Assembly: GCA_001596155.1 (NCBI GenBank)
Contig: CP014771.1
Coordinates: 1,798,001 to 1,862,000 of the forward strand
Origin: Hymenobacter psoromatis
GTDB lineage: Bacteria > Bacteroidota > Bacteroidia > Cytophagales > Hymenobacteraceae
Direction: 5' to 3'
DNA length: 64,000 bases
The notes below the pieces were generated by a model, which saw nothing but the letters and a program-made list of their open reading frames with translations, did not search any database and was not told where the DNA came from. Numbering within the stretch: position 1 is the first letter of the stretch; each line of letters opens with the position of its first letter. Below, piece by piece: positions 46,529-63,379 of this stretch. The position numbers and the translations under genes were made by a program.

Positions 46529-46537
46529 ACGTTGAAC

Positions 46538-46634
46538 CGTTTGTCATTGCGAGCTTGCGAAGCAATCGCACCAGAACGAAATCGTTCGAGCATCGTTCTG
46601 GTGCGATTGCTTCGCAAGCTCGCAATGACAAACG
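46538..46634. repeat. Palindromic repeat, GTCATTGCGAGC family, copy 4
   Basis: Perfect 42-bp arms (46538-46579 and 46593-46634) with a 13-nt loop, between the HAD gene and pruA. Confidence 0.88.
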
Positions 46635-52368: not shown

Positions 52369-53240
52369 TCATGCTTGCCGCATCCAAGCACGGCGAAACC
52401 ACTCCGGCATCTCTTAGCCCATGCTAGTGAGTTTGCGCGGTTCGTATTCAGCAAACCACCAGATGTTGGCTCCCGAGTTGTCAAATAGCTAGGGCCGGTC
52501 AACCAGTTGCATCATTTCGACCAGTAGCCCCAGGCTTTTGATATAGCGGCCCACTATTTTTTCTACCGCAACGCCGTGCCCACCTTTACTTACCCGGTTA
52601 CTAACCCGGTCAATATTTACCGCTGGCGTTTCCGTTGCGATGTAATACAATAGGACTTACGCAAAAGACGTCTGTCATGGCGAGCGAAGCGCGGCAATCG
52701 CACCAGAACGACTGGCGCGGGTATCGTTCTGGGGCGATTGCTTCGCTTTGCTCGCCATGACAGACGATTTGCGTAAGTCCTAGACAAATACGTTCGGTAG
52801 CCCTTGGAGGCAGCCAGACGCAGAAAATCCAGCTTCGAGCGGTGCGACATCACCGACTCAAACGTAAAGCTTATGCTGTTTGCTAGCAGCTGATGCCTCA
52901 GAAAATCGGCTACCGTGGCTGCTACGTAGGAATCGAGGGCTGCTTCTGGCCGCAACACGATAATATTTTCGGTTATCCGTAGCCCCAGCTTTTCGCTGGT
53001 TTGCATGCCTGCCGCCGTCTGGCCGCTCGCCAGAAACTCATCCAGTCCGGCGTGCGACACTTGCAACTGATAATCAGCGGCATGTAAAAATCCCTGCCGA
53101 TTCAGCAGTTTCTCAATCTCGTCCGCATTTATGTAAACCCCCAGGTTGAACTGCCCACCTAATTCTTCCAGCAAGGCTAACTTCCCTGACCTGTTCGGCC
53201 CGGAAAAAAGCTTCACCCGTGGCACCGTTGCCCCTACCAT
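52369..53240 (-). pseudogene. Zeta-toxin/COG4185-type P-loop kinase, disrupted by a MITE
   Basis: A close paralogue of the intact gene at 55276-56010. ATG 53240 reads MVGATVPRVKLFSGPNRSGK; the Walker A is GPNRSGKL, where the paralogue has GPNGSGKS, so it has already lost its Ser/Thr. At residue 151 the frame enters a 133-bp MITE (52651-52783). After the MITE, the kinase resumes (YYIATETPAVNIDRVSNRVS, KGGHG) and is broken by two more stops before AWMRQA and TGA at 52369. It is clearly dead. Its small upstream partner gene remains intact. Confidence 0.85.
52651..52783. mobile_element. 133-bp MITE inserted in the kinase pseudogene (GTCAT-GCGAGC family, copy 5)
   Basis: Terminal inverted repeats TAGGACTTACGCAAA and TTTGCGTAAGTCCTA. 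Inside is the same GTCATGGCGAGC palindrome seen in copies 1-4. ACAA flanks both ends (52647-52650 and 52784-52787), a 4-bp target duplication. Removing the element and one ACAA restores the paralogous reading frame (TYLYYIATET). Confidence 0.88.
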
Positions 53241-53441: not shown

Positions 53442-53581
53442 TTTGTCGCCGCCTGTTTTGCCAGGTATTTATTCATACAATATATGAACACTCTGCCGCT
53501 ACGTGTCCCCGGCCCCGCCGTGCCGAGGGCGGCTAGCAGATGATTAAGACTTTGCGCGGTTTGCGCGTTTCCGGCCCCCGC

Positions 53582-53618
53582 CCCCGGCCGCCACCCCAGC
53601 GGCGAGGGTAGCGGGAGT
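53582..53618. repeat. GC-rich hairpin repeat, copy 1
   Basis: CCGGCCGCCACCCC, loop, GGGTAGCGGG; nearly all positions pair. It lies between TA-type cassettes. Confidence 0.7.
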
Positions 53619-53711
53619 TGCTGTGCCTTGCAGCAAGAGCTTACGATGTATAAGGCACCCTTTTATGATTGGGTGGCGTTATCTTGCTTTGCCATTAGCC
53701 TGCTAGAAATT

Positions 53712-53933
53712 ATGTCACCTGCAACTCCAACTCAACCAACCAAGCTCAATAGTCTACAGCTAAGCCTGCTTCGTCTTTTTGACCGGGGCATGAGCGACGA
53801 GGATACGTTGGAAATTCGGCGGCTGCTGGTAACACACCTATCCAAGAAGCTGCAAGACGAAGTGCAGCGCATTGATAAAGAACGCGGCTACACGGCCGAA
53901 GACTACGAACGGATGCTGAACGAGCCTTCCTGA
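53712..53933 (+). CDS. Antitoxin of a PIN-domain module
   Basis: 73 aa. The start ATG 53712 was chosen over the longer frame because the preceding residues are hydrophobic and unlike the rest. The protein is helical and charged (LSLLRLFDRGMSDEDTLEIR, LSKKLQDEVQRIDKERGYTA). It overlaps the PIN toxin gene by one base (TGATG), typical of co-translated TA pairs. Confidence 0.72.
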   Translation: MSPATPTQPTKLNSLQLSLLRLFDRGMSDEDTLEIRRLLVTHLSKKLQDEVQRIDKERGYTAEDYERMLNEPS

Positions 53934-54340
53934 TGCCAAGCGCCGTCATCGACACGAATTGTCTGCTGGTCTTGCTTAACGCCAAAAGCCCCTATTACCG
54001 CTTGTATGAGCTGTTTGCTGCCGAAGCATTCGTTTGGGTGTTAAGCAACGAAATACTGACAGAGTACACGGAGGTGTTGACTCGCCATTATTCAGCCAGC
54101 ACCGCCAACCGGGTACTGGAAATTCTGGTAGCGGCTCCCAATATTCTGCACCAGGAAGCCTACTACAAATGGCAGTTGATAAGCGACGACCCCGACGACA
54201 ACAAATTCGTGGACGTGGCCATTGCCGCCGGGGCCGACTATCTGGTTACGAATGACCGCCACTTCCAGCCGCTCCTACAACTGGATTTTCCTCGGGTGCC
54301 TATCGCCACGCTGCAAGCATTTCTGGCAGCAATGCTGTGA
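53933..54340 (+). CDS. PIN-domain ribonuclease toxin
   Basis: 135 aa. Acidic active-site residues: Asp7 in AVIDTNCLLVLL, Glu in SNEILTEYTEVL, and Asp/Asn in DDNKFVDVAIAAGADYLVTND. It belongs to the COG1569-like PIN family, which cut RNA. It pairs with the upstream 73-aa antitoxin through a one-base overlap. Confidence 0.85.
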   Translation: MPSAVIDTNCLLVLLNAKSPYYRLYELFAAEAFVWVLSNEILTEYTEVLTRHYSASTANRVLEILVAAPNILHQEAYYKWQLISDDPDDNKFVDVAIAAGADYLVTNDRHFQPLLQLDFPRVPIATLQAFLAAML

Positions 54341-54400
54341 GTTTTCCTACACCGACTCACCGCATAATCAGAACAAAAGCTAACGGCTAATAGCTACCAG

Positions 54401-54447
54401 CCCCCCCGCCCCCCAGCTGCCACCCCAGCGGCGGCAGTAGCGGCAGT
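54401..54447. repeat. GC-rich hairpin repeat, copy 2
   Basis: Variant with CTGCCACCCCAGCGGCGGCAGTAGCGGCAGT, located between two convergent PIN modules. (Motif given in parts: CTGCCACCCC and AGTAGCGGCAGT.). Confidence 0.6.
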
Positions 54448-54455
54448 GTCCTGAG

Positions 54456-54851
54456 CTACTTCACTACGTCCACGCCATACAGATGAAACTTGCCATCCGA
54501 GGTCAGCACCGGCAAGTTTTCGGTTAGGGCCTGCGCGATAATGAGCAAATCGAATGGGTCGCCGTGGTCTTTCACCTTTGGCAGCGTGGCAATGTAGAGG
54601 AGCTGACTTTGCTTGATGGGCAGTAGGTGAATGCCAAACTTGCGGCGAATGACCGTTGCGAATGTTTCCAGTGAAAGGCCGTTCAGGTCCAGCTTGCCCA
54701 GGCGCACTTTGATAGCCATCTCCCAAAGGCTGGCCGGGCTGATAACAAACGCATTGCGCTGGTCAATCAAAATGCTTTGCACCTCTGCCGATAACAACCC
54801 AAAATCAGTGCCCAGCACGATTAGGGCGTTGGTATCAAGCAAATACTTCAC
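54456..54851 (-). CDS. vapC: VapC-type PIN-domain toxin
   Basis: 131 aa. Active-site residues: Asp6 in YLLDTNALIV, Glu in SPASLWEMAIKVRLGKL, and Asp pair in DHGDPFDLLIIAQAL, then LTSDGKF. This is the PIN subgroup with the DPFD motif (PilT N-terminus type). Its ATG overlaps the upstream antitoxin gene by 4 nt (ATGA). Confidence 0.88.
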   Translation of the reverse strand: MKYLLDTNALIVLGTDFGLLSAEVQSILIDQRNAFVISPASLWEMAIKVRLGKLDLNGLSLETFATVIRRKFGIHLLPIKQSQLLYIATLPKVKDHGDPFDLLIIAQALTENLPVLTSDGKFHLYGVDVVK

Positions 54852-55033
54852 TTGCCGCTCGGCCAGTTGGCGGGCCGGTCATGCTCATCAAAGAAATCGG
54901 GATGCACGATAATCTTACCCTTAAAGTAGTTGGGGATAATATTCGATTTCTTGGCTGGTTTGACAACCGGCTTCTTAATAGCGCTGGCCTTTTTGGCCGG
55001 GGCGGCTGTCTTCTTGGGGGCGATGGCAGGCAT
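54848..55033 (-). CDS. Antitoxin of the VapC module
   Basis: 61 aa from ATG 55033. The longer frame covers two GC-rich repeats and is rejected. A Lys/Ala/Pro-rich N-terminus (APKKTAAPAKKASAIKKP), probably contacting DNA or RNA, precedes NIIPNYFKGKIIVHPDFFDE and ends in NWPSGK. The 4-nt overlap with vapC supports the TA pairing. No classic AbrB or RHH motif is obvious. Confidence 0.65.
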   Translation of the reverse strand: MPAIAPKKTAAPAKKASAIKKPVVKPAKKSNIIPNYFKGKIIVHPDFFDEHDRPANWPSGK

Positions 55034-55161
55034 AGTGGTACGGGTTGAATGAGGTAAAGATAACGCCTGCTCCCGGCATCTGGTTCGCGTTAGGAAAGCG
55101 CTCAAGACGGCATGAACGAGAGCAAACTGCCAGCCGCTAAAAGCTGCTGGCTCACTTCTCC

Positions 55162-55204
55162 TCCGCGCCCCAGCCGCAACCCCAGCGGCGGGGGTAGCGG
55201 CAGT
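55162..55204. repeat. GC-rich hairpin repeat, copy 3
   Basis: CGCCCCAGCCGCAACCCC then AGCGGCGGGGGTAGCGGC. Between vapB-like and kinase genes. Confidence 0.65.
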
Positions 55205-55228
55205 TTCTACTGACGATAAAACACCTCG

Positions 55229-55274
55229 CCCCCGCGCCCCGGCCGCCACCCCAAGCGGCGAGGGTAGCGGGAGT
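55229..55274. repeat. GC-rich hairpin repeat, copy 4
   Basis: CCGGCCGCCACCCC, AAGCGGC, GAGGGTAGCGGGAGT; ends 1 nt before the kinase stop, possibly its terminator. Confidence 0.7.
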
Positions 55275-55275
55275 G

Positions 55276-56010
55276 TTAGCAGGTTCCCATCCAAGCGCGC
55301 CGAAACCATTCTGGTATCTCCTCCCCAATCGTCGTCAATTTACCTGGTTCATATTCGGCAAACCACCAGATGGCCGCGCCTGAATTGTCGAACAAATAAG
55401 CCCGGCTGACCTGCTGCATCGTTTCGGCCAGCAGGCCCAGGCTTTTCGCGTACCGACTCACAATTTTCTCCGTCGAAACGCCGTGTCCGCCTTTGCTTAC
55501 CCGGTTGCTTACCCGGTCTACATTTACGGCCGGGGTTTCCGTAGCAATGTAGTAGAGATAGGTGCGATACCCCTGAGTCGCCGCCAGTTGCAAAAACTCT
55601 AGTTTTGACCGGTGCGACATGACCGATTCAAACGTAAAGCTGAGCCGGGCGGCCAGTAACTGGTGCCGCAGAAAATCGGCCACCGTGGCCGCCACGTAAG
55701 AGTTTACGGCTGCTTCCGGCCGCATGACCACGATGTTTTCCGCAATGTGCAGCCCGGTTTCCTGACTGGTTTGCGCCCCCACGGCCGTTTTCCCGCCCGC
55801 CAGAAACGCCGCAAAATCGGCCTGCGTTGCGGTCAGTTGGTAATCGGAGAGATGCAGGAACCGCTGTCGGACCAATTGCTTCTCTAGCTCATCGGCATTC
55901 ACATACACGCCCAGATTGAACTGTCCGCGCAATTCATCCAGTAGCGCCGATTTGCCCGAGCCGTTGGGGCCTGCGAATAAGCGCAGGCGCGGAGTAGCAC
56001 TTATCACCAT
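55276..56010 (-). CDS. Zeta-toxin/COG4185-type P-loop kinase (intact)
   Basis: 244 aa. Walker A GPNGSGKS (residues 14-21), then YVNADELEKQL as the zeta-type lid/catalytic Asp region, FTFESVMSHRSKLEFL, and the family mark RVSNRVSKGGHGVSTEKIVS with RYAKSLGLL. These are zeta-type phosphotransferases; the bona fide zeta toxin phosphorylates UDP-GlcNAc, but this subgroup's substrate is not known. It overlaps its small partner by one base (TGATG). A disrupted paralogue lies 2.3 kb away. Confidence 0.8.
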   Translation of the reverse strand: MVISATPRLRLFAGPNGSGKSALLDELRGQFNLGVYVNADELEKQLVRQRFLHLSDYQLTATQADFAAFLAGGKTAVGAQTSQETGLHIAENIVVMRPEAAVNSYVAATVADFLRHQLLAARLSFTFESVMSHRSKLEFLQLAATQGYRTYLYYIATETPAVNVDRVSNRVSKGGHGVSTEKIVSRYAKSLGLLAETMQQVSRAYLFDNSGAAIWWFAEYEPGKLTTIGEEIPEWFRRAWMGTC

Positions 56011-56210
56011 CAGTTAGCCTTGCGGCCAGGGTTCTGGTACTGGTCTGTCACTACTTCGCGCTGCCCGTTGGGATGAATCCGTACTAATTGGCCGTTTTCG
56101 TAAACCGTCACGGTGAGGCCCAGCGCCCGGCTCTCGCTCATGGCCCGCAACGAGGCTTGCCGCGTAGCCGCTTGCAGCACTTCGGCGGGTATATCTTCGG
56201 TCTTTTTCAT
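56010..56210 (-). CDS. Small antitoxin-like protein, partner of the intact kinase
   Basis: 66 aa: helical start (EDIPAEVLQAATRQASLRAM), then beta hairpin LGLTVTVYENGQLVRIH and NGQREVVTDQY. It overlaps the kinase start by one base. Paralogue at 53244. The epsilon/zeta gene order (antitoxin first) fits, but this protein is not epsilon-like in sequence. Confidence 0.65.
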   Translation of the reverse strand: MKKTEDIPAEVLQAATRQASLRAMSESRALGLTVTVYENGQLVRIHPNGQREVVTDQYQNPGRKAN

Positions 56211-56280
56211 GGTATCGTGGCCTGCTTCATCAGGCGTTTGCTCGTCTAAGATACGACGAACGAAAACGAACAGCTAACAA

Positions 56281-56328
56281 CCTCCCCGCGCCCCGGCCGC
56301 CACCCCAAGCGGCGGGCGTAGCGGCAGT
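56281..56328. repeat. GC-rich hairpin repeat, copy 5
   Basis: CCCCGGCCGCCACCCC, AAGCGGC, GGGCGTAGCGGCAGT. It lies between two minus-strand genes. Confidence 0.7.
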
Positions 56329-56351
56329 GGCTATAGGTGAGCGCAAATCAT

Positions 56352-57269
56352 CTAGAAACCAAACTGGTCGCCATTTCCACTTTCCAACCCACGCATTATA
56401 TTTTCCTCATCATCGTCTCTATCATAATATTTCTCATTATCATAATATCCCTCATTATCATCATCAGAATAATATTCTTGCCTAGAATCAAGGGTCTTTT
56501 GGTCTTCTAAGTATTCTGTCAGCTTCCTATAATTTTCAGTTATAGTTCGCTTATCTGCTGATTTGAAATGGACTTTTAAATTCATTTGGAATTCAAAAGA
56601 GAAATCGGCCTTTATATCCTTAGTTTTGAACGAGTCAAAGTCAAACATTGGACTCTCATTTAGGCCGGTTATTTCATTCTTATTACCGGGAAGACAAAAT
56701 CCATCCACATTTCTAATGCACCAATAAATATATTCTGGATTTGGCTCCGCAGCGTTTAGCTTGTCTTCAAAATCGTCGGCTATATAAAATTCAATTCCAG
56801 GCCGAAGTTTACCAATTCCATTAACCCAATGCTGTTGAAGGTCACCAGTCATGTATTTGCTTGCTAACTCACAAGCGAATTTTGATAATTTTTTGTCTAG
56901 CATCCCTCCTTTACTCACAACTAACTTAACTTTGTTACCGTCGACTATAAAATCGCATTGCGCTCCACGGTAGAAAGCCAAAATAAACTCAACCCAGCCT
57001 TCCTCGTCTATACCTTCTATATTTATGTGAGGGCCGGTAATTCTATTATCAACTTCTTTGTAAGTTTCTTTTGAGAATATTTTTTCAAAAGACGCATAAA
57101 GCATTTCTCTGTAACGATTTACTAATTCTATGTGATTTCCGCTATACACTCGTGTAACTGATAAGCCTGCGTACTTGCCGAACGCAAAACGGGAATCCAA
57201 ATTGTAGAGGCCTTGCTTAGGATACATTTCCGCGCTGATTTTTTTATTCGAGATTTTTGGCAGTCGCAT
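56352..57269 (-). CDS. AT-rich hypothetical protein, FGKY motif near the N-terminus
   Basis: 305 aa. The gene is far more A+T-rich than its neighbours, so it was probably acquired. RFAFGKYAGLSVTRVYSG resembles the FGKYxG motif of exonuclease X-like C-terminal/DUF3820 segments. The middle is mixed alpha/beta (VEFILAFYRGAQCDFIVDG). The C-terminus is highly acidic with Tyr (SDDDNEGYYDNEKYYDRDDD). No signal peptide. The function is unknown; the context suggests an accessory or defence-type gene. Confidence 0.6.
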   Translation of the reverse strand: MRLPKISNKKISAEMYPKQGLYNLDSRFAFGKYAGLSVTRVYSGNHIELVNRYREMLYASFEKIFSKETYKEVDNRITGPHINIEGIDEEGWVEFILAFYRGAQCDFIVDGNKVKLVVSKGGMLDKKLSKFACELASKYMTGDLQQHWVNGIGKLRPGIEFYIADDFEDKLNAAEPNPEYIYWCIRNVDGFCLPGNKNEITGLNESPMFDFDSFKTKDIKADFSFEFQMNLKVHFKSADKRTITENYRKLTEYLEDQKTLDSRQEYYSDDDNEGYYDNEKYYDRDDDEENIMRGLESGNGDQFGF

Positions 57270-57378
57270 AGCGCCGCAACAAGATACACCGTTTAGACGA
57301 ATTATTCAGATAAACCGGAAACGTAAAAAGCCCCGCCAGCACCACGCCGACGGAGCTTCCCCACAAACATACACCACC

Positions 57379-57663
57379 CTACACCGTCGGCAGCCCCACG
57401 TTCTCAAACCGCACGCCGCCATCCTCCAACACCGCCTCCACGACGGCATCTTTGGACACGCGACCAGATAAAATCTCCTTGCTCAACTCGTTCAAAATCA
57501 CGCGCTGCAACACGTGCTTGAGGGGCCGAGCGCCGAACTGCGGGTCGAAGCCCTGCTCGCCGAGGTAGTCGAGCACTTCGGGGGTAGCTTCGAGGCTGAT
57601 GCCGGCTTCGGCCAGACGCTGCTGGATTTGCTTGAACTGGCTGCCCACGATACGGCGGACGCA
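57379..57663 (-). pseudogene. Diverged 3' fragment of clpB
   Basis: About 89 codons ([50 protein letters not shown]) match the end of the intact ClpB, with about eight residue differences and many silent ones. So it is not a recent copy of the neighbour. The fragment starts abruptly at 57663 and stops at the normal stop. An antitoxin-like and a kinase gene lie between it and clpB. Confidence 0.85.
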
Positions 57664-57720
57664 CCTTTTTCCGAAACTTTGGCGTTACTTTACCCATACT
57701 GCTTATTGAGCATCCGACCC

Positions 57721-57948
57721 ATGATTTCTCCCTCGCCGCCTTCTGAGTCCGCTACCTTAGCTGCGCAATTGGACAACCTCGCCAACATGGCCGAACGGGT
57801 GGCCTCGCCGGAGTTTAAGCGGGGCTTTCAGGAATTTGTGCGGGCGCGGGCCAAAGCAGCCAATTCCTATTTGACTTACCGCAATGCCCAGAGTCAGTTG
57901 GTGCAAGAATGGCCCGCAACGGGCCGGATAGATATTCTGGCTGACTAA
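57721..57948 (+). CDS. Small antitoxin-like protein, partner of the third kinase
   Basis: 75 aa from ATG 57721; the longer frame runs antisense to the clpB fragment and is rejected. It is an all-helical protein (LAAQLDNLANMAERVASPEF, KRGFQEFVRARAKAANSYLT) unlike the other two partners. It ends 10 nt before the kinase gene. Confidence 0.62.
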   Translation: MISPSPPSESATLAAQLDNLANMAERVASPEFKRGFQEFVRARAKAANSYLTYRNAQSQLVQEWPATGRIDILAD

Positions 57949-57958
57949 TCTGGCACTG

Positions 57959-58549
57959 ATGCCTGTTTCCGCGCCTACGGTGTATATCCTGGCCGGGCCA
58001 AATGGTGCGGGTAAAACGTCGCTTTTTCAGTACGAAGCAGTGGCCGTGCCGCGCCTGAACGGCGATAGCCTGTATCAACAGGGCTTAGGGGCAGCCGAAG
58101 TAGATGCCGCGTTGCGGCAGCAGTTGACCACGTGGCTCGCGCAGCGACTATCGTTTGTCATAGAAACCAACGCCGCCAGCGAACGGGATTACGGCTTGTT
58201 CAACGCCTTGAAAAAAGCGGGCTACCACCTCGAATTTCGCTACGTTGGGTTGAATTCGGTGGCGCTATGTCAGAGCCGCGTAGCGCAACGGGTACTAGAA
58301 GGTGGCCACGATGTGCCATTAGCTTTGATTCAGCAGCGTTATTCCAATGGCCTGTCGCTACTGAAACGGCACTACCAGCTTTTCGACCGGCTCCAACTCT
58401 ACGATAACACGGGCCCGGTAATTCGGCAACTAGCTGATTTTACCCCCGGTCAGCCATTGCAGCAAATAGGTAAACCCGTTGCCTGGGCATTGCCAGTCGT
58501 GGTGCATATTCAGCAAATGGAAGGTATTTACCAGCGTTTTCAAAAATAA
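57959..58549 (+). CDS. Zeta-toxin/COG4185-type P-loop kinase, third copy
   Basis: 196 aa. Walker A ILAGPNGAGKTSLFQ, then RLNGDSL, ETNAASERDYGLFNALKKAG and the family mark RVAQRVLEGGHDVPLALIQQ with RYSNGL. It is shorter than and only distantly related to the 244-aa copy, so it came separately. A bidirectional terminator divides it from clpB. Toxicity and the antitoxin role of its neighbour are inferred from organisation. Confidence 0.78.
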   Translation: MPVSAPTVYILAGPNGAGKTSLFQYEAVAVPRLNGDSLYQQGLGAAEVDAALRQQLTTWLAQRLSFVIETNAASERDYGLFNALKKAGYHLEFRYVGLNSVALCQSRVAQRVLEGGHDVPLALIQQRYSNGLSLLKRHYQLFDRLQLYDNTGPVIRQLADFTPGQPLQQIGKPVAWALPVVVHIQQMEGIYQRFQK

Positions 58550-58582
58550 AAAGCCCCACCAGCACAATGCCAGCGGGGCTTT
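58550..58582. terminator. Bidirectional terminator between the third kinase and clpB
   Basis: AAAGCCCC / GGGGCTTT stem (58550-58557, 58575-58582) with A/T flanks. A degenerate relative stands at 57325-57358 downstream of the clpB fragment. Confidence 0.75.
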
Positions 58583-58600
58583 ACCATTCAAAACCAGCAG

Positions 58601-61219
58601 TTAAACGGTCGGCATCTCCACGTTCTCAAATCGCACGCCGCCATCCTCCAACACCGCCTCCACCACGGTATCCTTGGATACGCGGCCGGAGAGAATCTCT
58701 TTACTCAACTCGTTGAGAATCACGCGCTGCAACACGCGCTTCAACGGCCGCGCCCCGAACTGCGGGTCGAAGCCCTGCTCGCCGAGGTAGTCGAGTACCT
58801 CGCCGGTGGCTTCAAGGCTGATGCCGGCTTCGGCCAGGCGCTGCTGGATTTGCCGGAACTGGATATCCACAATCTTGCGGATTTCCCGGCGATTGAGGGG
58901 CTGGAACAGCACGATTTCGTCAATGCGGTTCAGAAACTCCGGGCGCATATGCTCCTTGAGGCGGTCCATCACCTCGTCGCGGGTGCGGTCCACGATGACT
59001 TCTACTTCCTCCGGGTCGTGCTCGGGCAGGTCCTTGAAATTGCGCTGAATGATGTCGGCCCCCGTGTTCGAGGTCATGATGATGATGGTGTTCTTGAAGT
59101 TCGCTACCCGGCCTTTGTTGTCGGTGAGGCGGCCATCGTCCAGCACTTGCAGCAGGATGTTGAACACGTCGGGGTGCGCCTTTTCGATTTCATCGAGCAG
59201 CACCACCGAGTAGGGCTTGCGGCGCACGGCCTCCGTGAGCTGCCCGCCCTCGTCGTAGCCCACGTAGCCGGGAGGCGCCCCGATGAGGCGCGACACGGAA
59301 TGGCGCTCCTGAAACTCGCTCATGTCGATGCGCACCATCGCGTTCTCATCGTTGAATAAGTATTCGGCTAGGGCCTTGGCCAACTCGGTTTTCCCTACCC
59401 CCGTCGTGCCCAGGAAGATGAACGAGCCGATGGGCCGCTTAGGGTCTTGCAGGCCGGCGCGCGAGCGGCGCACGGCATCCGAGATGGCGGCGATGGCCTC
59501 GCTTTGACCGGCCACGCGCTTACCCAGCTCGTTTTCGAGGTTGAGCAGTTTGTCGCGGTCGGCTTGCAGCATCTTGCTCACGGGGATGCCCGTCCACTTG
59601 GCCACTACCTCGGCAATATCCTCACTGGTAACGACTTCCTGGAGCATTCCGCCGTTTTCCTTCTGGGCGTTGGCTTCGTCTTGTAATATTTTGAGGCGCT
59701 GCTCGGCTTCCTGAATCTTGCCATAGCGCAGTTCGGCCACGCGCCCATACTCACCCTGGCGCTCAGCCTGCTCAGCTTCGGTTTTGAAGCGCTCGATGTT
59801 CTCTTTCTCGGTCTGGATGTTGGTGAGCACGGCTTTTTCGCCCTCCCACTTGGCCTTCAGCTCGTCGCGCTGGCTGCCCAGCTCGGCTAGCTCCTTGCTC
59901 AGCACGGCCTCGCGGTCGTGGTTGTCTTCGCGCCGGATGGCCTCGCGCTCAATCTCCAACTGCATCATACGGCGCTGCACCTCGTCCAGCTCTACGGGCA
60001 TGGAATTCAGCTCGATACGCAGCTTGGCGGCGGCCTCATCCATCAGGTCGATGGCCTTATCGGGCAAAAAGCGGTCGGTGATGTAGCGGCTGCTTAGCTC
60101 CACGGCCGCAATCACGGCATCGTCGGTGATGCGCACGCCGTGGTGCAGCTCGTACTTCTCCTTGATGCCGCGCAGGATGCTGATGGCGTCGGGCACGCTC
60201 GGCTCATCCACCATCACGGCCTGAAAGCGACGCTCCAGGGCCTTGTCCTTTTCGATGTACTTCTGGTATTCCTTGAGCGTAGTCGCGCCGATGGCGTGCA
60301 GCTCGCCACGCGCCAGAGCAGGCTTAAGCAGGTTGGCCGCATCCATCGCGCCCTCGCCGCCGCCGCCGGCCCCAATCAGGGTGTGTATCTCATCAATGAA
60401 AAGCAGAATCTGCCCTTCCGAGTCGGTCACTTCCTTGATAACGGCCTTGAGGCGCTCCTCAAATTCGCCCTTGTACTTGGCCCCTGCGACTAGCAGGCCT
60501 AGGTCGAGGCTCATCAACACCTTGTCTTTCAAGTTCTCGGGCACGTCGCCGGCCACGATGCGCTGGGCCAGGCCCTCGGCAATGGCGGTTTTCCCTACCC
60601 CCGGCTCGCCGAGCAATACGGGGTTGTTCTTGGTGCGACGGCTCAGAATCTGGAGCACCCGCCGAATCTCCTCGTCGCGCCCGATTACGGGGTCCATCTT
60701 GCCCTGGCGCACGCGCTCGTTCAGGTTCACGGCGTAGCGGTTGAGGCTCTGGTATTGCTCCTCCGCCGTTTGGCTGGTGACCTTACGCCCGCCCCGCAGC
60801 TCCTGGATGGCGGCCTTCAGGTCTTTTTCGGTAAAGCCGTTGTCTTTCAGCAGCGTAGCCACACTATCCTTGCCGCCCAGGATGCCCAGCAGCAGGTGCT
60901 CGACGGACACGAACTCGTCGCCCATGTCGCGCATCTGGGTGTTGGCGCGCTGCACGGCGTTGGCCGCGTCGTTGGCGAGGTAGGGCGAGCCGCCGCTCAC
61001 CTTGGGGTAGGCCGTCACGATGGTATCGAGCCGCTGGCCGAGATTGGCCAGGTTCGCGCCCACCTTCTTGCCCAGGAAGCTCAGGGTATTCTCGTCGTTC
61101 TGGAGCAAGGCCTTCAGCAAGTGGCCGGTTTCGATGGCCTGCTGCTGGTTGGCTCCCGCTAGCTCAGTGGCCTTCTGCACGGCCTCCTGCGCCTTGATTG
61201 TGAAGTTTTTAAAGTCCAT
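58601..61219 (-). CDS. clpB: ATP-dependent chaperone ClpB
   Basis: 872 aa, full length. The N domain ([20 protein letters not shown]), first Walker [19 protein letters not shown], Walker [17 protein letters not shown], a long middle coiled-coil domain (about 400-530), second Walker [18 protein letters not shown] and Walker [16 protein letters not shown] are all present. It lacks a ClpP loop and disaggregates proteins with DnaK. Normal ClpB has Pro where this second Walker A has the first Thr, a mild change. Fragments of other clpB alleles flank it on both sides. Confidence 0.97.
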
Positions 61220-61353
61220 TTTGATGCTAGAGTCTTAGGTGATGCTTCGGGTTAGGAAGCTGTACGTAAGGCGTAGCAAACGGGGTGCTAGAGGGGAAAG
61301 CGGACTTTTTGACGGAAAAATGCAATTTATCACCAACTCACTACGCCATAATT

Positions 61354-61923
61354 TCAGGCTGGTCCGTCCGGCGCAATAGGCTTGCCGTTTTCTATCGCGT
61401 CGGGCACAATGTATAAATCCCTGAACATCTGCTCTACCGTAGCCAGCAACTCTGGCTCAGGGTTGGCGCGGCACTCCAGAAAGTACGCGCTGATAGCGAG
61501 CAGCGGGTGGTGGACAAAGCGCATCGGACCAATAAAAGCCGTCACCATTTTGAGGTAGACGCGGAATTGTTTCGTACTGACTGACCCCTCCCCTACCAAT
61601 GCCTCCCCCACAAAACCAGCCGAAGCCAAGACATCGCGCCGGCAGATATCCAGGAAAATCTGCGTGCAGGTAGTCAGGATGCGGAAAGCATCGCCATCAT
61701 TCACCAGCAGCTTAAATCGATTGGGCGAGGCCTTGAGCGCCAGCGGGTAATATTTCAGCACGTACACATGGTGTTGGTATTGCTCGGCTTCTACCACGTA
61801 GCGCCGGTTTTTGCGGGTGCGAAACGTGTAGTAGGGCGTGCAAACCAAAGGGCCATCCTTGTGAGACGGCCCTTTGCGGTAATGAAACGAATAGCCTTCA
61901 CCTAGCTCGCGCTCAAATGGCAT
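61354..61923 (-). CDS. Hypothetical 189-aa protein of a putative TA-like pair
   Basis: No recognised family. Pattern: a basic N-terminus (GYSFHYRKGPSHKDGPLVCT), beta strands TFRTRKNRRYVVEAEQYQHH and VYVLKYYPLALKASPNRF, then helices (ILTTCTQIFLDICRRDVLAS) and a C-terminal MFRDLYIVPDAI. It overlaps the upstream 55-aa gene by 11 nt. It sits between clpB and a clpB 5' fragment, in the same position type as the kinase cassette on the other side. That is the basis for suspecting a toxin-antitoxin or defence role. Confidence 0.6.
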   Translation of the reverse strand: MPFERELGEGYSFHYRKGPSHKDGPLVCTPYYTFRTRKNRRYVVEAEQYQHHVYVLKYYPLALKASPNRFKLLVNDGDAFRILTTCTQIFLDICRRDVLASAGFVGEALVGEGSVSTKQFRVYLKMVTAFIGPMRFVHHPLLAISAYFLECRANPEPELLATVEQMFRDLYIVPDAIENGKPIAPDGPA

Positions 61924-62080
61924 ATTTATAGGCGTTACGGCGCAAGCGGATTAAATCCTCCTCCGAAAGCGTGTCAAACTTGAACTGCTTGGCATACTCG
62001 CGGGCCTGCGCTAACCGCTCTTCTTTCGTCAGGCTGGCGGCGGTAGCGGACTGCGGCTTTTTGTTGTCGGTAGTACCCAT
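61913..62080 (-). CDS. Small 55-aa partner gene of the 189-aa protein
   Basis: ATG 62080 to TGA 61913, too small for simple ORF filters. It reads MGTTDNKKPQSATAASLTKE, then ERLAQAREYAKQFKFDTLSE and EDLIRLRRNAYKYAI. It is charged and helical, like many antitoxins. The stop lies within the start of the 189-aa gene (11-nt overlap), a strong sign of translational coupling. Confidence 0.6.
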   Translation of the reverse strand: MGTTDNKKPQSATAASLTKEERLAQAREYAKQFKFDTLSEEDLIRLRRNAYKYAI

Positions 62081-62139
62081 GATTCGGCAGGTTTACAGGT
62101 AACTGGTTTTCCTCACTACCACGAAGATACCAGAGAAGG

Positions 62140-62234
62140 TTCAGCAAGTGGCCGGTTTCGAGGGCCTGCTGCTGGTTGGCCCTGGCGAGTTCGGTGGCCT
62201 CCTGCGCCTTGATGGTGAAGTTTTTAAAGTCCAT
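62140..62234 (-). pseudogene. Diverged 5' fragment of clpB
   Basis: ATG 62234 gives [20 protein letters not shown] and QQQALETGHLL, matching ClpB residues 1-36 minus four residues (VQKA), then breaks off. The upstream 100 bases (62235-62335) also resemble those upstream of clpB (61220-61315: TTCGGGTTAGGAAG, TAGCAAAC-GGGTGCTA, CGGACTTTTTG). So promoter and start were duplicated, not only coding DNA. Confidence 0.85.
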
Positions 62235-62368
62235 GATTCGCTAGGTTCTGGTAGGTGATTCGGGTTAGGAAGTCTGTACGAGAGGGATAGCAAACCGGGT
62301 GCTAAGCAAGTATTTCGGACTTTTTGGCGGGAACACATGGTTCGAAAATTATCCATTCGGACGAAATT

Positions 62369-63379
62369 TCAGTGGTCGCTTCCACCTCTATACTTTTTAA
62401 CGCCAAAAAACTTTTCTGAATAGGGCAATGACAGAACATTAAAAGTCCCGGTCTTGTGAGAGCAGAATTTGGCGACTGAGCAATTCACGCACTTAGCCGG
62501 ATTTAAACTGCCCACGTTAAAAGGTATTTCGTAGCCGGATTTTAGCTTGATGATGCTCTTATAAATATCAGTTATTTCAATTTTAAATTGTTGGGCCTTA
62601 TCAATCTTGAGCACATTACAATGCTGAACAACAGGTTTTTCGTTTACGTAATCATAGCTCCAATACACTAAGTACCCGTACGCTGCATTTACAGAATCCA
62701 ACCCAAACAAATATGAAGCTAACTGTAGCTTATGACTTTGTCGAGCGTTTAAATCACTGTTTGATTGTTTAATGTATCGAAACTTTTCTTCTACTATAAA
62801 TTTCTGCTCGATTTTATTTTTGAAAATATAATCAGGCTGACCCACGAAATTACCCCTGCTACTGAACAAATTCTCAGTTTTTTCCGCGTGCCCTAAATAT
62901 TCCACTTCTGAAGAGCAAACGTCAGCGAAAAAGAAATTTGTCTTTTCATTTTTAACCGAAACAGCATAAGCATTGTGGCTTAAAGGTGAGCGTTCGCCTT
63001 TTTTGGCAACAGTGATAAGCCTATTTTCGAGATGCAAATCGGTACCTAATTTAGTTTCGTTTGTTTCTATCTTTTTAAAGCTTTTTCCTATGCAGAAACT
63101 AGCTGGACAAAATGAAAAGTCAGCTATTTCACTTGCTGACACATAAGATGATTCTACATAATCAACAACATGGTCAGAAATCTTGCCTCTATCCAAAACG
63201 ATGTCTTGTTCAGACACTGGGCTTCTAAAAATGTACTCGGCAGTTAGTTTCCAATAAACTCGTTCTATTTCCAAATTTTTAGAAAGTTCGTTTAAATATC
63301 TCTCCCTGACCGTAAGATTGTCAAACCGTAATAAACCCAACAAACGGTTATAAATAATTTCTTGATTCTTCGTAAGCAT
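62369..63379 (-). CDS. Cas4-like Fe-S PD-(D/E)XK nuclease
   Basis: 336 aa. The nuclease core shows GQPDYIF (catalytic Asp), FIVEEKFRY (ExK) and KLQLASYLFGL (the Gln-Tyr motif). Cys residues in ADFSFCPASFCIGK and the C-terminal AKCVNCSVAKFCSHK form the four-Cys iron-sulfur cluster arrangement of Cas4/AddB-type proteins. The N-terminal 90 residues are an extra helical domain. The gene is AT-rich, suggesting transfer. No cas1, cas2 or CRISPR array is in the window, so it is a stand-alone (solo Cas4-like) nuclease, possibly of a defence system or mobile element. Confidence 0.8.
   Translation of the reverse strand: MLTKNQEIIYNRLLGLLRFDNLTVRERYLNELSKNLEIERVYWKLTAEYIFRSPVSEQDIVLDRGKISDHVVDYVESSYVSASEIADFSFCPASFCIGKSFKKIETNETKLGTDLHLENRLITVAKKGERSPLSHNAYAVSVKNEKTNFFFADVCSSEVEYLGHAEKTENLFSSRGNFVGQPDYIFKNKIEQKFIVEEKFRYIKQSNSDLNARQSHKLQLASYLFGLDSVNAAYGYLVYWSYDYVNEKPVVQHCNVLKIDKAQQFKIEITDIYKSIIKLKSGYEIPFNVGSLNPAKCVNCSVAKFCSHKTGTFNVLSLPYSEKFFGVKKYRGGSDH

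Follow-up and report, generated by a model that had tools for sequence, protein, structure and literature searches.

Duplicated clpB ends and small toxin-antitoxin-like cassettes at the clpB locus of Hymenobacter

The chaperone gene clpB of Hymenobacter psoromatis lies in a stretch of 64,000 nucleotides (contig CP014771.1 of assembly GCA_001596155.1, positions 1,798,001 to 1,862,000; here called the window), where it is bracketed by diverged copies of its own two ends, with a small gene pair between the gene and each copy. We found clpB-end fragments of this kind in 26 of 115 clpB loci of the genus, and the clpB locus is most likely a genus-wide landing place for small cassettes. Judging from the sequences compared, the fragments probably arose by insertion with duplication of a clpB end, after which the cassettes would have spread by homologous recombination through clpB ends that travel with them. 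We give this reading a probability of roughly 55%.

The window locus and its counterparts across the genus

Read along the strand of clpB, the minus strand, the window runs from a 5' clpB fragment through genes for proteins of 55 and 189 amino acids (aa) to clpB and its terminator. Beyond the terminator lie a convergent kinase gene with a 75-aa partner, both on the plus strand, and then a 3' clpB fragment with a terminator copy (Table 1). In a self-comparison of the window, the 3' fragment and its terminator matched 58547-58881 at 82.9% identity over 340 columns (E = 2e-96), while the 5' fragment matched the start of clpB, with about 98 bp of its promoter, at 77.4% identity over 212 columns (E = 8e-39). 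This is the arrangement that the original prediction had described, with both gene pairs where it had placed them. The bracketed gene is intact. Its 872-aa product scored above the TIGR03346 cut-off (1282.7 versus 1232.1 bits) and was the only full-length match in a ClpB search of the genome, which otherwise returned two ClpC pieces at the start of the window, the two clpB fragments, and one weak match.

To place this locus in context, we extracted clpB loci of up to 20 kb each from 115 of 120 genomes of the genus; five genomes with short or partial contigs (G074, G090, G093, G096, and G097) were left out, and the window is locus L116. Fragments were called by comparing each clpB with its own flanks, with 40 nt of coding end as the minimum; rows that held only a terminator were excluded, and the count was made by hand. 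The 26 fragment-bearing loci comprised 23 rows of 3' fragments in 22 loci and 5' fragments in eight loci. Four loci (L116, L125, L131, and L162) had both types, and one (L142) had two consecutive 3' fragments. The neighboring clpB was full length and open in 24 of the 26 loci, the others being frame-broken (L136) or cut by a contig end (L229). The repeats were mostly about 80 to 460 bp long, and their length differed between insertions.

When duplicated gene ends were counted by a mechanical rule, clpB ends were duplicated in 13 of the 115 loci, compared with 10 events among about 1,630 other open reading frames at the same loci, some of these being toxin-antitoxin (TA) paralogues. We used this gene-end rule because a plain count of direct repeats near clpB (28 clpB-end pairs in 24 loci versus 188 other pairs in 61 loci) was uninformative by itself, since many of the other pairs resemble repeats inside large genes, as judged by position and not checked individually. 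Among 12 clpC control loci, four of them on short contigs (L329 to L332), no clpC-end repeat was found beside clpC; L321 and L322 each had one unrelated repeat, and L324 had a ClpC-like C-terminal match about 5 kb away. In other genera, a comparable repeat occurred in one of 77 loci.

Table 1. Features of the clpB locus in the window (window coordinates)
Feature	Position	Strand	Evidence and remarks
5' clpB fragment: promoter region and first ~36 codons	62140..62333	-	77.4% to 61113-61318; codon-36 junction as at other loci
55-aa gene, first in upstream cassette	61913..62080	-	antitoxin-like by position only
189-aa gene, second in upstream cassette	61354..61923	-	relatives found; no family match
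Intact clpB, 872 aa	58601..61219	-	TIGR03346; sole full-length match in genome
clpB terminator; second copy at 57324-57359	58547..58582	-	self-comparison
Zeta-like kinase, 196 aa, convergent with clpB	57959..58549	+	PF06414, 33.3 bits, cut-off 22.3
75-aa partner of the kinase	57721..57948	+	antitoxin-like by position; adjoins kinase at other loci too
3' clpB fragment (~codon 773 to stop) and terminator	57324..57659	-	self-comparison; other loci of the genus

Cassettes, junctions, and inheritance

Two slots flank clpB, and they differ in content. At the 5' end, the 55/189 pair sat between fragment and gene in all eight loci with a 5' fragment, and it was found just upstream of clpB in 14 loci in total. 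In 12 of these 14, the 189-aa match ended 137 to 165 bp ahead of clpB (the matches in L162 and L201 were partial). The junction between fragment and cassette fell directly after clpB codons 33 to 36 (..TGCTGAA) in five of the eight fragment loci (L116, L119, L125, L131, and L163). The fragments of L193 and L224 were altered but followed by the junction stub, and the junction pattern found no match in L162. The stub, GCTGAACCTTTT, was also retained without any fragment in six loci (L144, L173, L198, L201, L208, and L216). Going by the promoter layout of Bacteroidota, the stub may survive as part of the cassette promoter. In L229, a related pair stood downstream of clpB together with a 3' fragment.

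The 3' slot was varied and held pairs of the zeta kinase, PIN, MntA/HepT, and DUF6364/PIN types, among others. According to the original prediction, its insertion idea would fail if the fragments proved to be simple old tandem duplications without cassette variation. This refuting outcome was not seen; different families occupy the 3' spot, and the 55/189 pair was present throughout the 5' spot. Starts of the 3' fragments ranged from nt 2218 to about 2580 and clustered near codons 773 to 783, with a left edge common within 50 nt in 13 of the 26 rows tallied. Immediately ahead of the 3' fragment, the motif GGTGC was seen by eye in eight of 11 kinase and PIN cassettes.

Presence of the fragments and of the 5' cassette on a tree of the clpB body is as scattered as random draws. 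The tree covered 112 loci, L228, L229, and L230 being excluded as cut by contig ends; the 3' set placed on it comprised 23 loci, adding L135, L164, and L177 and omitting L217 and L229 relative to the fragment count. We observed 20 changes for the 3' fragments versus 21.1 at random, 8 versus 7.8 for the 5' fragments, and 13 versus 13.4 for the 189-aa cassette. A single gain would require 38, 28, and 41 losses, respectively. Furthermore, in an approximately unbiased test with 13 loci, the 5' cassette tree and the clpB tree rejected each other (p = 1.2e-6 and 1.5e-19), a test of conflict that covers the 5' cassette only. L173 and L193 shared 96% of clpB versus 78% of the cassette.

Analyses of the clpB frame and of third positions used 108 loci, with L136, L137, L138, and L226 also excluded for broken or incomplete frames. 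Between close species, third-position divergence rose from about codon 781 (factor 0.64 to 0.94 in the windows immediately before, 1.4 to 1.78 after). The stretch of raised divergence, clpB codons 781 to 872, starts where many 3' fragments do. We set aside its interpretation as a genus-wide scar; it may reflect old end swaps or plain constraint.

Among the cassette proteins, Zeta_toxin, PIN, nucleotidyltransferase, and HepT-like domains passed Pfam cut-offs, as in known zeta kinase, PIN, and MntA/HepT TA modules, and the window kinase is among them (Table 1). The 55/189 pair differs from such modules in that searches of Pfam, PADLOC, NCBIfam, and PHROGs gave nothing for it at E <= 0.01. The 75-aa protein had no match at that threshold either. 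The best sub-threshold matches were both weak (75 aa to RMF, E = 0.027, below cut-off; 55 aa to phrog_16443, E = 0.071). The term "TA-like" used in the original prediction is thus backed by a family match for the kinase and is an inference for the 55-, 75-, and 189-aa proteins; the 75-aa partner may still be a diverged antitoxin that the libraries miss. The 189-aa family comprised 58 relatives including the window's own, and of the nine with a source name, eight named Hymenobacter and the ninth no organism. No PDB sequence matched the 189-aa protein. Its structure was predicted at moderate confidence (mean predicted local distance difference test score, 71.4), and a fold search with this model gave weak hits and no convincing match. 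Function was assigned by neither libraries nor fold search, and we call the protein a putative toxin only.

Close relatives of these proteins were found mainly at clpB. For the 189-aa protein, the nearest homologs, at about 68% identity or higher across most of its length, adjoined clpB in 14 of 16 genomes; in the remaining two, the homolog lay about 6 kb from clpB (G009) or on another contig (G065). PIN homologs (at least 62%) lay at most 8.6 kb from clpB in 14 of 16 genomes, as did kinase homologs (at least 60%) in six of seven, while more distant kinase and PIN relatives were mostly elsewhere. Of ten inspected TA copies that seemed to lie away from clpB, one (L242) in fact belonged to a clpB locus that carries a 5' fragment. 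Among the other nine, L299 and L307 had end duplications of another gene, L237 and L238 had GC-rich repeats, and neither end duplications nor repeats were found at L265, L267, L268, L304, and L306.

Contrary to what the original prediction had implied, the pattern is not confined to clpB: another gene shows it in two genomes. In G008 and G091, PIN cassettes far from clpB lay amid four copies, over 6 to 7 kb, of the 3' end and terminator of a hypothetical gene of about 235 aa (L337, G008:C4 near 284490; L336, G091:C1 near 4472078). The gene itself was intact nearby in both, and no copy was found in the two other genomes searched. Two genomes are a small number, and the event may be common to them by descent. 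L299 and L307 may go back to a single inherited event.

Several features next to these elements deserve mention. Just outside the 5' fragment, the window encodes a Cas4-like PD-(D/E)XK nuclease (336 aa, 62369-63379), and just outside the 3' fragment a 305-aa protein with a weak ExoX-like C-terminal match (56352-57269). Elsewhere in the genus, relatives of the nuclease lie downstream of clpB in L117 and L141 and a relative of the 305-aa protein does so in L137. A family of about 140 aa, with a signal-peptide-like N terminus by eye, is a frequent convergent neighbor of clpB, sometimes in several copies (L177, L181, L170, and others). About 3 kb past the 3' fragment, the window carries a PIN/antitoxin pair of the type found in the clpB 3' slot of other species, with no clpB fragment beside it (53628-54340). 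A second zeta-like kinase gene (52617-53240) is cut by a palindromic insert of about 130 bp resembling a miniature inverted-repeat transposable element, with TAGGACTTACGCAAA-type ends (52651-52782); a related palindrome is found at 46535-46634. Between consecutive TA genes, we found five copies of a 46-nt GC-rich palindromic repeat (53574-53619, 54403-54448, 55160-55205, 55230-55275, and 56284-56329). An integron-like array over this region (53574-56329) was considered and set aside, the repeats being palindromic and GC-rich repeats also flanking the TA copies in L237 and L238; no search for an integron integrase or attC was made. We read the repeats as dispersed elements of the repetitive extragenic palindromic type.

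Origin of the fragments and competing explanations

If cassettes travel with clpB ends, the founding step would have been illegitimate joining or insertion with a long target duplication. Each cassette family would then carry a copy of one clpB end. With the 55/189 pair this copy would run from about -100 to codon 36, and with most kinase and PIN pairs it would start at about codon 775 and stop shortly after the terminator. Donor DNA, perhaps acquired by natural transformation, would recombine with the resident clpB within the shared end, either through one Campbell-like crossover or through a double crossover in which the fragment provides the second arm. The outcome would be a whole clpB with a partly donor-derived end, followed by the cassette and then by the displaced resident end. 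Displaced fragments would decay for lack of use, and addiction may prevent the cassette from looping out between its direct repeats; the junctions visible today are the inherited ones only. DprA and ComEC genes are present in the genome and likewise in most control genomes, including that of Escherichia coli, so their presence does no more than fail to exclude DNA uptake.

The relationships of the fragments bear on this proposal. That the fragments come from other alleles, as originally predicted, agrees with the window 5' fragment, which is closer to the clpB of other species (best, 0.849) than to its own gene (0.792), but not with the 3' fragment, which is nearest to its own gene (0.860; next, 0.849). 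In three of the eight loci with a 5' fragment (L131, L163, and L224), the start of the intact clpB looks foreign. The start in L131 is nearest to distant species (0.932, compared with 0.863 to 0.888 for the three nearest sisters), and for the fragment of this locus the best match is a close relative (0.893). In L224, both the intact start and the fragment are nearest to another clade. L163 has a sister without a cassette, L168, whose clpB body is 99.0% identical; the fragment of L163 stands at 0.945 to this sister versus 0.932 for the intact start. In all three loci, the foreign tract spans the promoter and ends within the first 50 to 107 nt, before codon 36, the result expected of a single crossover within the shared end. 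On the other side of the gene, L136 and L142 have 3' fragments that resemble a sister more closely than their intact clpB ends do.

Empty sites provided a second line of evidence. The flank past the 3' fragment adjoined clpB in other species for 10 of the 21 fragments tested (L125, L127, L144, L147, L156, L170, L175, L178, L179, and L192), and L142 gave one shorter match. Counted from the last codon, most projected positions fell between +13 and +155, with about +60 expected. For the 5' fragments, this was the case in three of eight (L125, L131, and L193), at -96 to -112 in long matches (about -95 expected). Fragments with such a match look like displaced former clpB ends, and the matching sites are likely former empty sites. 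Relatives with an uninterrupted clpB end, as the original prediction had anticipated, were therefore found for about half of the 3' fragments and for some 5' fragments, but for neither fragment of the window. We read the window 5' fragment as a displaced former clpB start all the same, the search for an empty site having given no match for this copy. Taken with the recurrence in the genus, the varied cassettes, and the conflict of the 5' trees, these sites support the idea of repeated cassette insertion at clpB ends.

A number of observations weigh against spread through travelling ends. In the window, the intact start matches the cassette-less sister L117 (0.917) as closely as the clpB body does (0.933), and the intact start is not clearly foreign in L119, L125, L162, and L193 either. 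Promoters diverge strongly even between cassette-less relatives (L132 and L128: 0.30 and 0.22). L163 and L168 also differ at clusters elsewhere in clpB and across kilobases of upstream DNA, so the comparison does not show a clean insertion. For nine of the 11 long 3' fragments, the best match is the gene beside them, as local duplication or gene conversion would also produce, and the position profiles of 3' mosaics are only suggestive. The evidence for empty sites in L170 and L179 comes from L177 and L181, two loci that themselves have clpB-end repeats further down, and the same flanks are often more distant from clpB in nearer relatives. Several copies of the 55/189 pair are not intact (stops in L119, L163, and L224; L162 in pieces; L201 partial). 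Finally, PIN copies amid the end duplications of another gene mean that clpB arms are not strictly required.

The strongest rival has every fragment arise on its own in a de novo insertion, through long target duplication or through homology-facilitated illegitimate joining, with no clpB arm travelling along. It accounts well for the long 3' fragments that are nearest to their own clpB, for the spread of 3' fragment starts, and for the PIN cassettes of two genomes amid copies of another gene's 3' end. It does not explain as readily why the 5' cassette keeps one junction across diverged loci, even without a fragment, why the intact start looks foreign in three loci, or why so few close homologs lie outside the clpB locus. 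We consider de novo insertion unlikely but a serious competitor, and we hold the spread of cassettes through travelling ends no more firmly than stated, because foreign starts were seen in three of eight loci and the window shows neither a foreign start nor an empty site.

Phages and integrative and conjugative elements (ICEs) integrate at gene ends, and a site-specific recombinase acting in trans might integrate the cassettes at fixed clpB sites in the same way. The clustering of junctions at codon 36 and near codons 773 to 783 would suit such an enzyme. However, 3' junctions and cassette sizes vary, the repeats are mostly 80 to 460 bp, another target gene exists, and Pfam and NCBIfam scans found no recombinase domain in the window cassette proteins (a recombinase in trans was not searched for, and cassettes of other loci were only partly scanned). 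We consider this explanation improbable. Least probable, by a little, is one old tandem duplication per side with vertical descent, gene conversion between copies, and many losses: it would fit the junctions common within a cassette family, the precise loss that direct repeats allow, and the many 3' fragments resembling their own gene, but it needs 38 losses for the 3' fragments and 41 for the 189-aa cassette, leaves the filling of one slot by different cassettes and the divergence between L173 and L193 unaccounted for, and is strongly opposed, for the 5' cassette, by trees that reject each other.

A wider form of the favored proposal is that Hymenobacter harbors recombinase-free mobile cassettes. 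TA-like pairs would carry the start or end of clpB as an address, cross species by homologous recombination, rebuild clpB, and leave displaced ends behind, with addiction stopping loop-out and the gene of about 235 aa serving as a second address. We offer this tentatively, with somewhat less than even confidence.

Precedents and significance

The original prediction knew of no described parallel, but two are close: insertion with long target duplication and arrays of displaced gene ends, both known from earlier reports (PMC3031569, PMC1643837, and PMC5361080). The first was described for restriction-modification genes in Helicobacter pylori (Nobusato et al. 2000, as cited in PMC3031569 and PMC1643837). 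There as here, small selfish gene complexes are accompanied by long, variable direct repeats of the target, as deduced by comparison of related genomes. The clpB loci likewise have long direct repeats of the target, of variable length, and a single uninterrupted target elsewhere for the fragments with an empty site (10 of 21 at the 3' end, three of eight at the 5' end, none for the window). In contrast to that system, insertions here recur at both ends of one housekeeping gene across a genus, and they involve TA-like cassettes, family-specific junctions, and, at some loci, a foreign-looking intact end.

The second precedent comes from type VI secretion effector-immunity modules of Vibrio cholerae, for which displaced 3' ends were reported and homology-facilitated illegitimate recombination was proposed (PMC5361080). 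There, an arriving module finds its anchor in a conserved stretch and shifts the resident 3' part downstream, where it persists as a remnant, so that arrays grow with each further insertion, much as at clpB. The displaced gene in those arrays is a variable toxin, whereas here a conserved chaperone gene is the anchor, stays whole, and receives insertions on both sides.

Some phages and ICEs insert into a gene and bring a substitute for the end that they cut off, the native end being displaced to the far side. The clpB loci would resemble these elements in that the gene is restored by an element-borne end with the displaced native end beyond. Unlike them, the window cassette proteins include no integrase, and the cassettes are mostly about 1 kb.

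To our knowledge, the movement of solitary chromosomal TA pairs without transposases is poorly understood. Across 115 species-level genomes, the clpB loci form a natural series that allows landing site, remnant, and cassette to be distinguished. They suggest that duplicated gene ends can serve as homology arms and that one conserved gene can be a common docking site, and the model makes predictions on integration, loop-out, and addiction that can be tested.

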